This document shows, piece after piece, positions 27,749 to 32,715 of a stretch of 64,000 nt of DNA (its first letter is position 1; each line of letters starts with the position of its first letter). The position numbers were made by a program, and so were the translations under genes. Under the pieces are notes generated by a model. The model was not told the origin of the DNA. It saw nothing but the letters and a program-made list of their open reading frames with translations, and made no database searches. The DNA comes from Methanoculleus sp. (GTDB lineage: Archaea > Halobacteriota > Methanomicrobia > Methanomicrobiales > Methanoculleaceae). The stretch spans positions 1 through 64,000 of the forward strand of contig NZ_JAJGBK010000029.1 of NCBI RefSeq assembly GCF_020696975.1, written 5' to 3'.

Positions 27749-28468
27749 TCACTTCTTCCACTTGCCGGTTCTCCGGGCGGCAATATGCCCTACCTTCCTG
27801 CCGGGGGACGTTCCGTGTGACACGGTCTTCGGCCGTCCGCAGTGCTGGTGACCACCGCCACCGAACGGGTGGTCGATGACGTTCATGCAGACACCCTTGA
27901 CGCGGGGCCATCTCTCGGCGGAGGACCTGACGTGGAGGGCCTTCTTTCCTGCCTTGGCAAACGGTTTTTCGCCCCGTCCGCCACCAGCAACGATACCAAC
28001 GGTTGCCATACAGACGCCGTTGAACCACTTGTTCTTGCCGCTCGGCATCCTGATACCGACACGGCCGTCATCGGCCTTACCGATGACGAGGGCCTGGACA
28101 CCGCTCGAGCGGACGAACTTGCCGCCGTCGTTGGGCCTGGCTTCGATGTTACAGACGTACGCACCAACCGGGATCTCCCGGAGCGGCAGGGTGTTTCCGT
28201 TCTTCACGATGCCTCCCGGACCCCAGGAGACCGCATCCCCGACACCGAGCCCTTCGGTGGCAAGGGCGTATACCTTCTCGCCGCTCTCGAGTTTTACAAG
28301 AGCGATCGGGGCGTGACGGGCCGGGTCGTGCTCGATATCGACGACAATCCCGGAGACCAGAACGTCATTCTTTCCCATGTGCCGCAGGGCGGCCTTATAC
28401 CGGTGCGACGGTGCACGGTAAGACGGGCCGCCCTTTCCGCGGCTCTGTGCTATGATTCGATGTGCCAT
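27749..28468 (-). CDS. rpl2: Ribosomal protein uL2
   Basis: This 239-residue protein has the start MAHRIIAQSRGKGGPSYRAP, PVGAYVCNIEARPNDGGKFV, VRIPSGKNKW-type peptidyl-transferase-centre loop (GIRMPSGKNKWFNGVCMATV) and NVIDHPFGGGGHQHCGRPKT. The ATG at 28468 follows AAGGTGAG and is preferred to a GTG two codons upstream. Confidence 0.97.
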   Translation of the reverse strand: MAHRIIAQSRGKGGPSYRAPSHRYKAALRHMGKNDVLVSGIVVDIEHDPARHAPIALVKLESGEKVYALATEGLGVGDAVSWGPGGIVKNGNTLPLREIPVGAYVCNIEARPNDGGKFVRSSGVQALVIGKADDGRVGIRMPSGKNKWFNGVCMATVGIVAGGGRGEKPFAKAGKKALHVRSSAERWPRVKGVCMNVIDHPFGGGGHQHCGRPKTVSHGTSPGRKVGHIAARRTGKWKK

Positions 28469-28479
28469 CGTCACTCACC

Positions 28480-28728
28480 TTACATTATTCCCAGCCGGCT
28501 GAGAATCTCTTCAGCCGCCTTCTCGTCCGCAAACTTTACAATGGCCTTCTTCTCACCCTTCATGGTCATCATCGTGCGGACCTCGGCCACATCCTGCTCG
28601 AAGGCGGACTCCAGTTCGCGCTTGATGTCCTGCTTGGTGGCGTTCCTCTGCACGATAAACTGGAGCTTGTTCTCGCCCTCAAGCATCATCGTTGCTTTTT
28701 CAGTAACGAAGGGATATTTCAGTACCAT
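28480..28728 (-). CDS. rpl23: Ribosomal protein uL23
   Basis: This 82-residue exit-site protein has the start MVLKYPFVTEKATMMLEGEN, FIVQRNATKQDIKRELE and EVRTMMTMKGEKKAIVKF. In the family it docks the signal recognition particle. It overlaps the L4 end by ten bases. Confidence 0.97.
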   Translation of the reverse strand: MVLKYPFVTEKATMMLEGENKLQFIVQRNATKQDIKRELESAFEQDVAEVRTMMTMKGEKKAIVKFADEKAAEEILSRLGIM

Positions 28729-29474
28729 GAGAACTCCTCCAGTCTCCTGATTGCAGACTCCGTCCAGACCGTCAGGCGTCCTGCCTGCGTGCCGGGTGCC
28801 AGGAGTTCTGTGTTCAGCTGGTTGACCGCCACGGCATCGACGCCGGCAAGGTTCCGGGCCGCCCGGAGCGGCTCGCTCCCGGTGACGATGAGGATGCTCT
28901 TGCGCTGCTTGTAGCGGCGACCACGCATGGTGCCGCGCCCCGCACGGACCTTCCTGCTGTTCTTCGCCCGCTCGACATCGGCATAGACCCCGAGAGCGGA
29001 GAGCGCCGAGATGACGTCGCCAGTCCGGGTGACCTCCTCGAACCGGTCCTCAAAGACCAGCGGAAGCTCGCCCTCAAAGAGGTGCCCGCGGCCCCGGACA
29101 AGGTCCTGATAGGTGCTGGCTGCGACAGCGGATCTGAGAGCCTTCCGCTTCTCTTTCCGGTTGATATCCTTGACAAGGATCTTTGCGACCTTCGGGGGAT
29201 GCGCTGCACGCCCGCCGGTTGCCTGTGGTACCCGGGCCACTCTGCTGCCGTTCTTCAGACGGGGAACCTGAGCGACGCCCCGACCGCTACCCCAGGACTC
29301 TGCCGAGGTGCGTATGCCGGCATAGGGGTTTGTCCCATGCGGCTGGAACCGGGTGCTCTGGAGCGCGAGGACAGCCCGCTTAATCAGGTCGGGCCTGTAC
29401 TCTTCGTTAAAGATTTCGGGGAGATCGATCTCGTGGGCGATCTCGCCTGTCAGTGTTCGAACCTGTGCCTTCAT
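28719..29474 (-). CDS. rpl4: Ribosomal protein uL4
   Basis: This 251-residue archaeal/eukaryotic L4 has PEIFNEEYRPDLIKRAVLA, the tunnel loop GSGRGVAQVPRLKNGSRVAR, and VRAGRGTMRGRRYKQRKSIL. It is six bases downstream of L3. Confidence 0.97.
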   Translation of the reverse strand: MKAQVRTLTGEIAHEIDLPEIFNEEYRPDLIKRAVLALQSTRFQPHGTNPYAGIRTSAESWGSGRGVAQVPRLKNGSRVARVPQATGGRAAHPPKVAKILVKDINRKEKRKALRSAVAASTYQDLVRGRGHLFEGELPLVFEDRFEEVTRTGDVISALSALGVYADVERAKNSRKVRAGRGTMRGRRYKQRKSILIVTGSEPLRAARNLAGVDAVAVNQLNTELLAPGTQAGRLTVWTESAIRRLEEFSWY

Positions 29475-29480
29475 CGCTGC

Positions 29481-30494
29481 TCACCCCTGCATGCTCTGCG
29501 TGCTGACGAAGTTGATCGTCGGTACGCGGATGGTCTGCTCACCCTTCCGTATCGCGGGCCGAATCCGGACCAGCCGCTTGTTCGGCCCCGGGACGGAACC
29601 CTTGATCAGCACGTAAGGCCCACGCACAAGGCCGTAGTGGAGGAACCCGCCTGCCGGGGTTATCTCGTCGCCATTGGCGCCGATCTTTAAGATACGCTTG
29701 TTGAACTCGGTGCGCTGCTGGTAGCCCATCTGGCCCATCTGGGGCACCTGCCACCGGACGTGGTGCGGGTTCCAGGGACCGAGGTTGCCGATGTGGCGCT
29801 TTTTGCCGCCGCGAGAGTGTTTCCGCTTCCGGACCTGGACACCCCAGCGCTTGACGGGGCCTTCCGTACCCTTACCGGTGGTGACGGCAGTCACATCGAC
29901 AAATTCGCCGACCTCGAGGTTGCCGGAGATCGCAACCTCTTTCCCGAGGAGTTCCTCGGCGTAGGCGATCTGGTCGTCGAGGTTTCCGCCGGCAATCCGC
30001 ATCTCCATCAGGTCGGGGACCTTCTTCGGGACGCCGGTGAGTTCCATGGGACGCGTGTAGGCCAGGGCGTAGATCTCCGCGACCTTCCCTTCGCCGATGG
30101 CATCCTTGATGGCAGCAAGGGCAGCAGCGGTATCGTGATTCTTCGGAACGTTGACGCGGCGTGACAGTTCCTCGTCAAGGTCTGTTGTCCAGGCCTCGGT
30201 CAGTGCGTGCTTCCCGTAGGTGTCCTCGCTGTATGCGCGCACGCCTGCCACCCGCATGGGCGGAACCTCGACCACGGTCACTGGTACCATCACATCCTTG
30301 CCTTCAGTGGGGCTGCTCTTGTGGTCATCGACCATGATGACGTGAGTCATCCCCACCTTGTACCCTGCAAATCCCTGCATAGCCGGGGCTCCCGTGTACT
30401 CCGGCCATGAGCCGTATCGTGGAACCGGGCTTTTTGCCCGCTTTCTCGGGCTGTACGCGAGGGATCCTCTGCGTGGTCTGTTAATCTTCGGCAT
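29481..30494 (-). CDS. rpl3: Ribosomal protein uL3
   Basis: This 337-residue archaeal/eukaryotic-type L3 has [34 protein letters not shown], the loop [17 protein letters not shown], and HPHHVRWQ-like [20 protein letters not shown]. It is the first gene of the ribosomal operon. The nearest convincing promoter is about 610 bases upstream. Confidence 0.97.
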
Positions 30495-31103
30495 GTTTCA
30501 ATCAACCCTTCGTGCGTTGTAGTGTGATGCATCGACTGCAAGCCGACGCATGCGCCGAACCCCGTGCCGGATGTGCCGGCACGATCGGTCTTCGGGAGAA
30601 CCCGTAGACCCGGGGCAGGATATCGAACGCCACGCCGAAACGGCGTGGCGCGAAGGGAAACAGTTGATGGAGGTAGCGGAGATGAAGAATGCAGAGACGT
30701 TCGTCTCAGCACGATCCAATGCTCTCTCTCTCCGCTGCCGGCCCCGATAGTGCACCGGGCGCGCTCCAGTCGTCGCCAATAGATCCTGACTCTTTGACGC
30801 TTCCGGGAATCGTTTTCCCGAAACCGGGCGCGCTGCACTGGCGTTGGCCCAGCGTCTCGATCAGATCCAGCTCCTGTCATCCCGTTGTGACGAGCACAAC
30901 TCCGTATCGACATCGCCCTCCATGAGGAGGGTTCGACCTTCGCTTTGTCTGATACCTTCTACACCGCTCTGCCGCGGGTGTCTGATCCCCCTATGCTGCG
31001 GAACCAGAGAGGTTTCGGGAATTGGAGGCGCGTTCAGCGCCGGCCAACTCTCGAAACCAGGCAGAGTTGTGCAGAGCGGTTTCTTAAACATTACTTAAAG
31101 TGA
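30495..31103 (-). ncRNA. Long structured leader of the ribosomal operon, or separate RNA
   Basis: No protein gene is evident over about 600 bases. Read on the minus strand, the segment begins about 25 bases after a TATA box and ends at the L3 start. It holds several perfect hairpins: a 10-base closing stem (30963-30972 with 31071-31080), an inner stem (31011-31058), CCCTCC-ATGA-GGAGGG (near 30918-30934) and GTTGTG-ACGAG-CACAAC (30889-30905). I looked for RNase P, SRP and tRNA signatures and found none. It could be an operon leader with autoregulatory structure or an independent RNA. Confidence 0.4.
30963..31080 (-). ncRNA. Closed stem domain at the leader's 5' end
   Basis: ACCGCTCTGC (30963-30972) and GCAGAGCGGT (31071-31080) are perfect reverse complements and enclose 98 bases. 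These contain a second hairpin, GGTTTCG to CGAAACC with inner TTGG/CCAA and GGCGC-GTTCA-GCGCC pairings. With the TATA box at 31104-31113, the predicted minus-strand start falls almost exactly on the first base of the closing stem. That supports a transcript that folds at once. Confidence 0.45.
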
Positions 31104-31113
31104 GATATAAACC
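31104..31113 (-). promoter_or_regulatory. TATA box for the ribosomal operon leader
   Basis: On the minus strand the sequence is GGTTTATATC, a strong archaeal TATA box. No comparable box is seen closer to L3. The interval 31114-31326, between this box and the end of the Tfx-type gene, shows nothing further. Confidence 0.55.
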
Positions 31114-31326: not shown

Positions 31327-31731
31327 TCATCCGAAGTACAGGTCACCGTCCTGGTTGATGTAGACCTCAACATCTTCGCGGACCTGTCTGCCCCTGAACC
31401 GGTCGGGGTTGGCGTCCCGGAGCCTGTTTATGAGCGAAATTGTGTCGTATTTGACCTTTATCCCTATCTTCTCGGCCTCGGTATAGATAAGCTCGGGGAC
31501 CTTGAGCAGATCGAGGCCGCCCTGGAGCGTACAGAGGTGCGTAGCGTCAAGAGTATAGAGGAATTCGAGCGTCTCACGTGCGCGCGAGATGTTCTCGATA
31601 GCAGCCTTCTCGATGGTGCAGACGTTTGCCTTTGAGGTATGGATGATCTCTGCGATCTGTTGTTGGGTCAACCCTTTCTTCCGGTAGCGCAACACTTCCT
31701 TCTGGCGATCGGTAAGCAGACCTTGTTTCAT
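31327..31731 (-). CDS. tfx: Tfx-family DNA-binding regulator
   Basis: This 134-residue protein has an N-terminal helix-turn-helix (LTDRQKEVLRYRKKGLTQQQ, then IAEIIHTSKANVCTIEKAA) and a C-terminal acidic domain typical of archaeal Tfx proteins (ARETLEFLYTLDATHLCTL, KVPELIYTEAEKIGIKV). The Methanothermobacter founder binds near the fmdECB promoter. The start is ATG 31731, one codon after a TTG. A TATA box 20-29 bases upstream implies a leaderless message. It is divergent from mtd, so a role in controlling this methanogenesis gene is plausible but unproven. Confidence 0.88.
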   Translation of the reverse strand: MKQGLLTDRQKEVLRYRKKGLTQQQIAEIIHTSKANVCTIEKAAIENISRARETLEFLYTLDATHLCTLQGGLDLLKVPELIYTEAEKIGIKVKYDTISLINRLRDANPDRFRGRQVREDVEVYINQDGDLYFG

Positions 31732-31750
31732 CAAACATATATTGTCGGCA

Positions 31751-31824: not shown

Positions 31825-31872
31825 AGAACTTGGCGATACTATCGTGTTCTCAAATTTTGAGAGGTGTTTAAA

Positions 31873-32715
31873 GTGGTAGTTAAAGTAGGAATTGCGAAAC
31901 TGGGAAATATCGCCAGTGGTGTAATGGGTGAACTTCTTCTTGACGAGCGGGCTGACCGTGAGGATATCATCACCTTCATGGCAACCTCCGGCACGAAGCT
32001 GCAGCCCGAGGATATCGACCGCGTCGTCAGCAATATGAAGGCATGGGGCCCGGACTTCTGTATCGTGGTCTCCCCGAACGGCGTCCTCCCCGGACCCACC
32101 CAGGCCCGTGAGGACCTCGCGGCAGCCGGAATTCCCTGCGTCGTCATCACCGATGATGTCACCACCAAGAAGGAGCAGTTCGAGGCGCTCAAGGCGAGCA
32201 ACTTCGGCTACATCATCATGAAGGCCGACGCCATGATCGGCGCCCGCCGTGAGTTCCTTGACCCCATCGAGATGGCGGACTACAACGGAAACCTCGTCAA
32301 GGTGCTCGCCCTCACCGGCGCGTTCCGCAAGATGCAGATGGAACTCGACAAGGTGATCGACCAGGTGAAGGCAGGCAAGAAGGGCGCGGACCTCGCGCTC
32401 CCGAAGGTCGTCATGACCTCCGACAAGGCAGTCGATGGCGAGTTCAGCAACCCCTACGCGCTCGCGAAGGCCCGTGCCGCCTACGAGATCGCCCAGGCGG
32501 TCGCAGGCGTCAACGTCAAGGGCTGCTTCATGACGAAGGAGTGGGAGAAGTACATCCCGATCGTCGCGAGCGCCCACGAGATGATGCGCCAGGCCATGGT
32601 CCTCTGCGAGGAGGCACGCGACCTTGAGAAGGGCATGGACGCGGTCATCAGGAAGCCCCACAAGAAGACCGGCGAGATCGTCTCGAAGACCGCGCTCATC
32701 AGCAAGCCCGAGTAA
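31873..32715 (+). CDS. mtd: F420-dependent methylene-H4MPT dehydrogenase
   Basis: This 280-residue enzyme reduces methenyl-H4MPT to methylene-H4MPT with F420H2 in the CO2-reducing pathway. Family-like stretches are [50 protein letters not shown] and [15 protein letters not shown]. The GTG at 31873 is chosen over GTG 31864 because GAGGTG lies six bases upstream and the protein then begins MVVKVGI as in relatives. A T-run at about 32726-32738 follows the stop and probably ends the transcript. Confidence 0.96.

Follow-up and report, generated by a model that had tools for sequence, protein, structure and literature searches.

The L3-L4-L23-L2 ribosomal operon of this Methanoculleus genome is preceded by a long untranslated start that, judging from comparison with its relatives, is a real and conserved folded RNA. 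We consider it probable that the core of this leader once lay inside the PF02598 gene heading the operon and now acts in cis as an autoregulatory untranslated leader of L3-L4-L23-L2. The broader proposition, which we also favor but with somewhat less assurance, is that an RNA control element located in phase inside an rRNA-methyltransferase gene across the archaeal phylum persisted as an untranslated leader each time the gene was lost, which would have happened repeatedly. All coordinates refer to the window, the whole stretch of 64,000 nucleotides that was analysed.

Promoter and extent of the leader

The ribosomal genes are encoded on the minus strand and run leftwards in the order L3, L4, L23, L2. 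Together with the elements upstream of them, they are located as follows:

31327-31734, minus strand: Tfx-family DNA-binding gene, upstream of the leader on the same strand
31104-31111, minus strand: promoter TATA box of the leader, TTTATATC, the top-scoring TATA-like site from 31326 to L3
31080-31085, minus strand: predicted transcript start region with the conserved AAGAAACC, ~25 nt past the TATA box
29481-30494, minus strand: ribosomal protein L3 (PF00297, E 1.2e-91)
28719-29474, minus strand: ribosomal protein L4 (PF00573, E 8e-39)
28480-28728, minus strand: ribosomal protein L23 (PF00276)
27749-28474, minus strand: ribosomal protein L2 (PF03947 and PF00181)

The Tfx-family gene is divergent from mtd (methylene-tetrahydromethanopterin dehydrogenase, 31864-32715, plus strand), and other genera of Methanomicrobiales likewise have the Tfx gene upstream of L3. 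The initial annotation placed the only good promoter about 610 bases before L3, which a TATA scan of the minus strand from 31326 to L3 bears out, yielding a single good TATA-like site, TTTATATC at 31111 (7/8, against 6/8 for the runner-up). The 619 nt upstream of L3 were matched in 33 of 35 Methanoculleus genomes at 69-82% identity, and the TATA box is near-invariant across 33 leaders of the genus. Together with the next 35 bases it ranks among the best-conserved parts of the gap upstream of L3, with a mean pairwise identity of 0.94 in the genus versus 0.55 just upstream. Transcription presumably starts at 31080-31085, and one genome-wide search returned no other copy of the AAGAAACC start downstream of TTATAT. 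In most families of Methanomicrobiales the leaders (those of Methanoregula, Methanolinea and others) display a conserved start GGAAGCC(U/G)AUAUGAGG after the TATA box, a similar version of which occurs in the relatives that carry the PF02598 gene.

Comparison within Methanoculleus revealed no open frame kept across relatives in the ~590 nt before L3. A small upstream ORF at 30861-30922 (ATG GAG GGC...) was rejected, its ATG not being conserved, as were frames of 93 and 188 amino acids, which are closed in relatives. The leader folds with an energy of -287.6 kcal/mol, compared with -227.2 +/- 6.8 kcal/mol for dinucleotide shuffles (z = -8.9).

An order-wide core and its presumed ligand

The initial annotation recognised no known RNA signature in the leader. 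The Rfam comparison contradicts this, as RF03135 (L4-Archaeoglobi) matches 30786-30864 on the minus strand over its full length (model positions 1-85), with 49.5 bits against a gathering cut-off of 34.5. The match precedes L3-L4-L23-L2 and shares their strand, and its structure is supported by covariation, both in the order-wide counts from non-coding leaders and in the synonymous test in coding lineages described below. The host is a Methanoculleus and not a member of the Archaeoglobi; the taxon is a label, outside the model itself. Among 393 sampled genomes of the phylum, 203 carry RF03135 above the cut-off, in single copy each among the matches listed. Other Rfam leader families gave no match in the leader up to E = 5; matches to human lncRNAs fell below their cut-off and were dismissed as chance.

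Alignment of leaders across the order demonstrates that conservation extends beyond the Rfam motif, starting ~50 nt before it and stopping ~20 nt after it. The elements of this region are:

30916-30931, minus strand: hairpin CCCUCC-UCAU-GGAGGG ahead of the core, from the fold; region identity 0.84 in the genus
30764-30914, minus strand: core element (model R3), 151 nt, found in 203 of 231 Methanomicrobiales genomes and in 131 of the 135 good-quality ones
30884-30900, minus strand: P0 hairpin GUUGUG-CUCGU-CACAAC, with compensatory changes in 5 of 7 pairs, 94% paired
30861-30868, minus strand: P1 5' arm GGAUCUGA, partner of 30781-30789, 96% paired, 6 of 9 pairs invariant
30786-30864, minus strand: RF03135 motif (49.5 bits), by homology a remnant of the segment of a PF02598 SPOUT methyltransferase gene that encodes the OB fold; within PF02598 in 39/39 genomes elsewhere
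30781-30789, minus strand: P1 3' arm UCAGGAUCU with one bulged G, from the covariation alignment

The core structure comprises 29 pairs (P0, extended P1, inner P1, P2 and the base of P3), with 93.0% of cells paired. Covariation was assessed on 36 leaders that contain no coding frame, in which 79 cells are changed on both sides, compared with 22.8 +/- 4.3 in shuffles. When the partner positions are slid, pairing falls to 34-44%. The P0 arms GUUGUG/CACAAC are replaced in other genera by GUGGUG/CACCAC and GCCGUGC/GCACGGC. P1 is the most conserved helix and offers little covariation evidence because it is mostly invariant. Within Methanoculleus, identity reaches 0.96 for P0 and the linker, 0.87 for the Rfam motif and 0.96 for the 3' hairpin, with 0.74 at the fourfold sites of L3. 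Model R3 has one copy per genome among the genomes listed, except for one with two (genome G373, contigs C65:579-727 and C67:49564-49703), where duplication or a mixed assembly is possible. The proposal that the leader is long and structured and probably holds an autoregulatory site is thereby well supported, as the leader contains a predicted ribosomal-leader family whose fold is kept through the whole order; the conservation of stems in relatives, suggested earlier as a check, likewise speaks for a leader.

A cis-acting ribosomal-protein leader is the best reading of the core because of its position, its single copy, the conservation of both loops and stems, and its membership of a published family. 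In this scheme, a surplus ribosomal protein of the operon (L4 being the published guess) would bind the core and lead to less L3 translation or less operon transcript. RF03135 was described as a predicted L4 leader of Archaeoglobi and rated borderline by Eckert and Weinberg 2020 (PMC7247131), where L4 was proposed as ligand by analogy to bacteria. L4 is hence the presumed ligand here by precedent only, and a regulatory RNA responding to something else, be it L3, L23, L2, another factor or no protein at all, is a serious possibility, although we lean slightly away from it. As argued in that paper, no operon product other than L4 has an established leader in other lineages, which favors L4. On the other side, the core shows no likeness to the 23S rRNA of this genome, with no motif match and a local alignment no better than shuffled. 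Mimicry of 23S rRNA was rejected on these grounds and thus gives no clue to the ligand. A literature search on archaeal L4 autoregulation returned nothing usable.

Between the core and L3, the leader contains the following elements:

30742-30759, minus strand: P4 hairpin CCCGGUGCACUAUCGGGG
30673-30740, minus strand: P5 long hairpin GGCAGCGGAGA...UCUCCGCUACC, recurring in Methanoculleus folds by eye
30652-30670, minus strand: CCAUCAACUGUUUCCCUUC, conserved in the genus and complementary to the L3 ribosome-binding region
30495-30511, minus strand: L3 ribosome-binding region GAAGGGUUGAUUGAAAC, identity 0.95 in the genus, with similar sequence in relatives

By eye, the P4 hairpin (CCGGUGCAC...GGGG) downstream of the core recurs in other lineages with altered stem letters, including within the ORFs of gene-bearing relatives. 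The segment at 30652-30670 is a candidate output switch, which might act by sequestering the ribosome-binding site. The indication for this is weak: CCAUCAACUGUUUCCCUUC is the best partner of the L3 ribosome-binding region in only 8 of 25 species, versus 13% with shuffled sites, and the switch is given little weight for that reason.

The 5' domain

At its 5' end, the leader is predicted to form a second structured unit:

30951-31082, minus strand: 5' domain, 132 nt, three-way junction; 52 pairs, 80.7% of cells paired
31080-31078 with 30956-30954, minus strand: closing helix ACC/GGU
31075-31069 with 30964-30958, minus strand: closing helix UCUGCAC/GUGUAGA
31066-31060 with 30973-30967, minus strand: closing helix CUCUGCC/GGCAGAG

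Across 29 Methanoculleus sequences, 61 cells of this domain are changed on both sides, compared with 27.6 +/- 5.1 in shuffles. Helix 2 is 90% paired with six pairs changed on both sides, and the junction holds two covarying hairpins. The 118-base domain delineated in the initial annotation is therefore real and covaries within the genus, but its closing stem differs from the conserved one. The perfect 10-base stem proposed there (ACCGCUCUGC at 31080-31071 with GCAGAGCGGU at 30972-30963) is present in the sequence and adjoins the expected 5' end; in the same 29 sequences, however, no cell has both sides changed and its pairing is no better than in shuffles. We rejected this stem for want of covariation; the conserved closing helix nests the same arms differently.

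Could the 5' domain be a separate functional RNA, such as a second protein site, a stability element or a processed non-coding RNA? Its covariation is independent, its start coincides with the expected 5' end, and it goes unrecognised outside the genus: model R2, built on the domain, matches Methanoculleus at 70-136 bits and returns no match outside it at E<=1. Even so, 5'-terminal pairing of leaders across the order is stronger with their own partners (mean -26.6 kcal/mol) than with swapped ones (-21.4 kcal/mol), and other genera have a 5'-terminal helix. The domain is also predicted to share promoter and transcript with the rest of the leader, and the stretch from the domain to L3 showed no terminator-like site on the minus strand. 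We regard a separate RNA as rather unlikely, and an independent non-coding RNA within the leader found no specific support.

Origin in a methyltransferase gene and relation to known systems

At 20 loci from families of the phylum other than this one, L3 is directly preceded by a long ORF that contains the motif and encodes ...REGVVVKVGSDGRVWVDVG.... This ORF corresponds to PF02598, the COG2106 SPOUT methyltransferase, which carries an OB-fold insert (PMC1829167). The presence of COG2106 genes in archaeal ribosomal operons has been described before, with a proposed role in making m3U in 23S rRNA (PMC2584109). In all 39 genomes whose coordinates were compared, RF03135 is located inside PF02598, with identical strand and codon phase. 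PF02598 is present in only 4 of 232 Methanomicrobiales genomes; a profile search gave no match in the genome studied here, where no conserved open frame encodes the domain. For the 228 of 232 Methanomicrobiales missing PF02598/COG2106, the m3U modification may be absent or the work of another enzyme.

The four gene-bearing Methanomicrobiales possess an intact ORF that contains the complete RNA element, P0 included, with ...taccgagaaggagttgtgctcagtcacaacgggatgatagacgtaGGATCTGAC... reading QYREGVVLSHNGMIDVGSD. In the gene-less members the frame is broken by stops and by frameshifts, the P1-to-P1' distances taking all three values modulo 3, while the RNA fold persists. Relic translation of gene-less leaders, e.g. 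GSDQDAWVDVRATSPFPLLQ up to a stop, reveals their PF02598 ancestry, and model R3, which was built without coding sequence, detects the coding homologues in other classes (best E about 1e-11). Gene-bearing relatives also resemble gene-less ones around the promoter and at the predicted start of the transcript (GGAAACCGUUAUGGGG...). Taken as homology, this means that the leader core is a remnant of the vanished PF02598 gene, and that the same fold still resides in the message of that gene in most related archaea. In a tree of L3 and L4, the gene-less lineages do not form one clade; four changes are required, and the AU test gives p = 0.041 against one clade. This moderate tree support suggests several losses of PF02598, with the RNA retained each time.

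The RNA constraint is detectable inside the gene as well. With protein and codon pool kept in synonymous shuffles, all 51 motif windows in PF02598 genes are more stable than the shuffle mean (mean z -2.9). In a control on 20 genes, the motif window has a mean z of -3.2, compared with -1.0 +/- 1.3 for other windows of the same genes. The motif in PF02598 genes is more stable than synonymous recoding predicts. At loci L096, L101 and L110 the P4 hairpin (UUCUGGUGCACACCAGAA) is formed inside the ORF too, by FWCTPE/FRCTPE codons, and the embedded RNA may therefore reach further 3' than RF03135. Since RF03135, in the genomes sampled from outside Methanomicrobiales, consistently falls within the coding sequence of PF02598, both its taxonomic label and its presumed untranslated status need revision.

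Although the core is homologous to PF02598 coding sequence and the RF03135 matches elsewhere all keep coding phase, it is highly improbable that the core is merely a decaying methyltransferase pseudogene and RF03135 a reflection of protein-coding conservation: the fold outlasted the frame, showing 79 compensatory cells where shuffles give 22.8, the core is better conserved than the L3 fourfold sites, the element is still present after gene loss in 131 of the order's 135 good-quality genomes, and the structure within the gene exceeds synonymous expectation. Equally hard to credit is that the methyltransferase itself used the element as a substrate or as a site of autoregulation. Its place in the OB-fold-coding part of the enzyme's own message could speak for this, but its retention in almost every member of the enzyme-less Methanomicrobiales is at odds with it.

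Retention of the core after decay of the gene points instead to a regulatory RNA that outlived its host protein gene. We hypothesize that the PF02598 gene headed the operon and carried the RNA control element within its coding sequence; in Methanomicrobiales the gene would have decayed, probably more than once, with selection keeping the fold, which became a plain leader. As the element would be part of translated RNA in gene-bearing archaea, regulation in them may work through translational coupling or through the stability of the message. Haloferax volcanii, a laboratory organism included among the controls, carries both RF03135 and the PF02598 gene; if the hypothesis is right, regulation by an RNA buried in coding sequence could be tested directly in it.

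If this reading is correct, a borderline archaeal ribosomal leader becomes a phylum-wide element overlapping a protein gene, and the gene loss in Methanomicrobiales represents a natural experiment parting RNA constraint from protein constraint. It would also be a caution that coding sequence may harbor RNA families found close to ribosomal operons of archaea.

Compared with the published RF03135 leader, which it matches over the full length at 30786-30864 and in its position ahead of the same operon, the element described here belongs to Methanomicrobiales, is larger (5' P0 hairpin, longer P1, more 3' hairpins) and is preceded by a genus-specific 5' domain. The main text of PMC7247131 makes no mention of a location within a protein gene. 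With the PF02598/COG2106 gene, the leader core shares homology in sequence and position to the OB-fold-coding segment; it differs in being non-coding, with the frame lost and the gene absent from this genome. The bacterial S10-operon leader is bound by L4. The same operon logic would apply here if L4 is the ligand, but this leader has no Rfam match to the S10 leader. In Methanococcus vannielii, the control site of ribosomal protein L1 lies within its own coding message. The gene-bearing relatives would resemble this system in having a ribosomal-protein control site in a coding region, yet protein, operon and structure differ, and the host gene in M. vannielii is the regulated gene. In being a ribosomal leader of a described family, the element is ordinary; what is uncommon is that this leader, by its homology, is RNA that survived the loss of its gene, and that elsewhere in the phylum it still lies within coding sequence.
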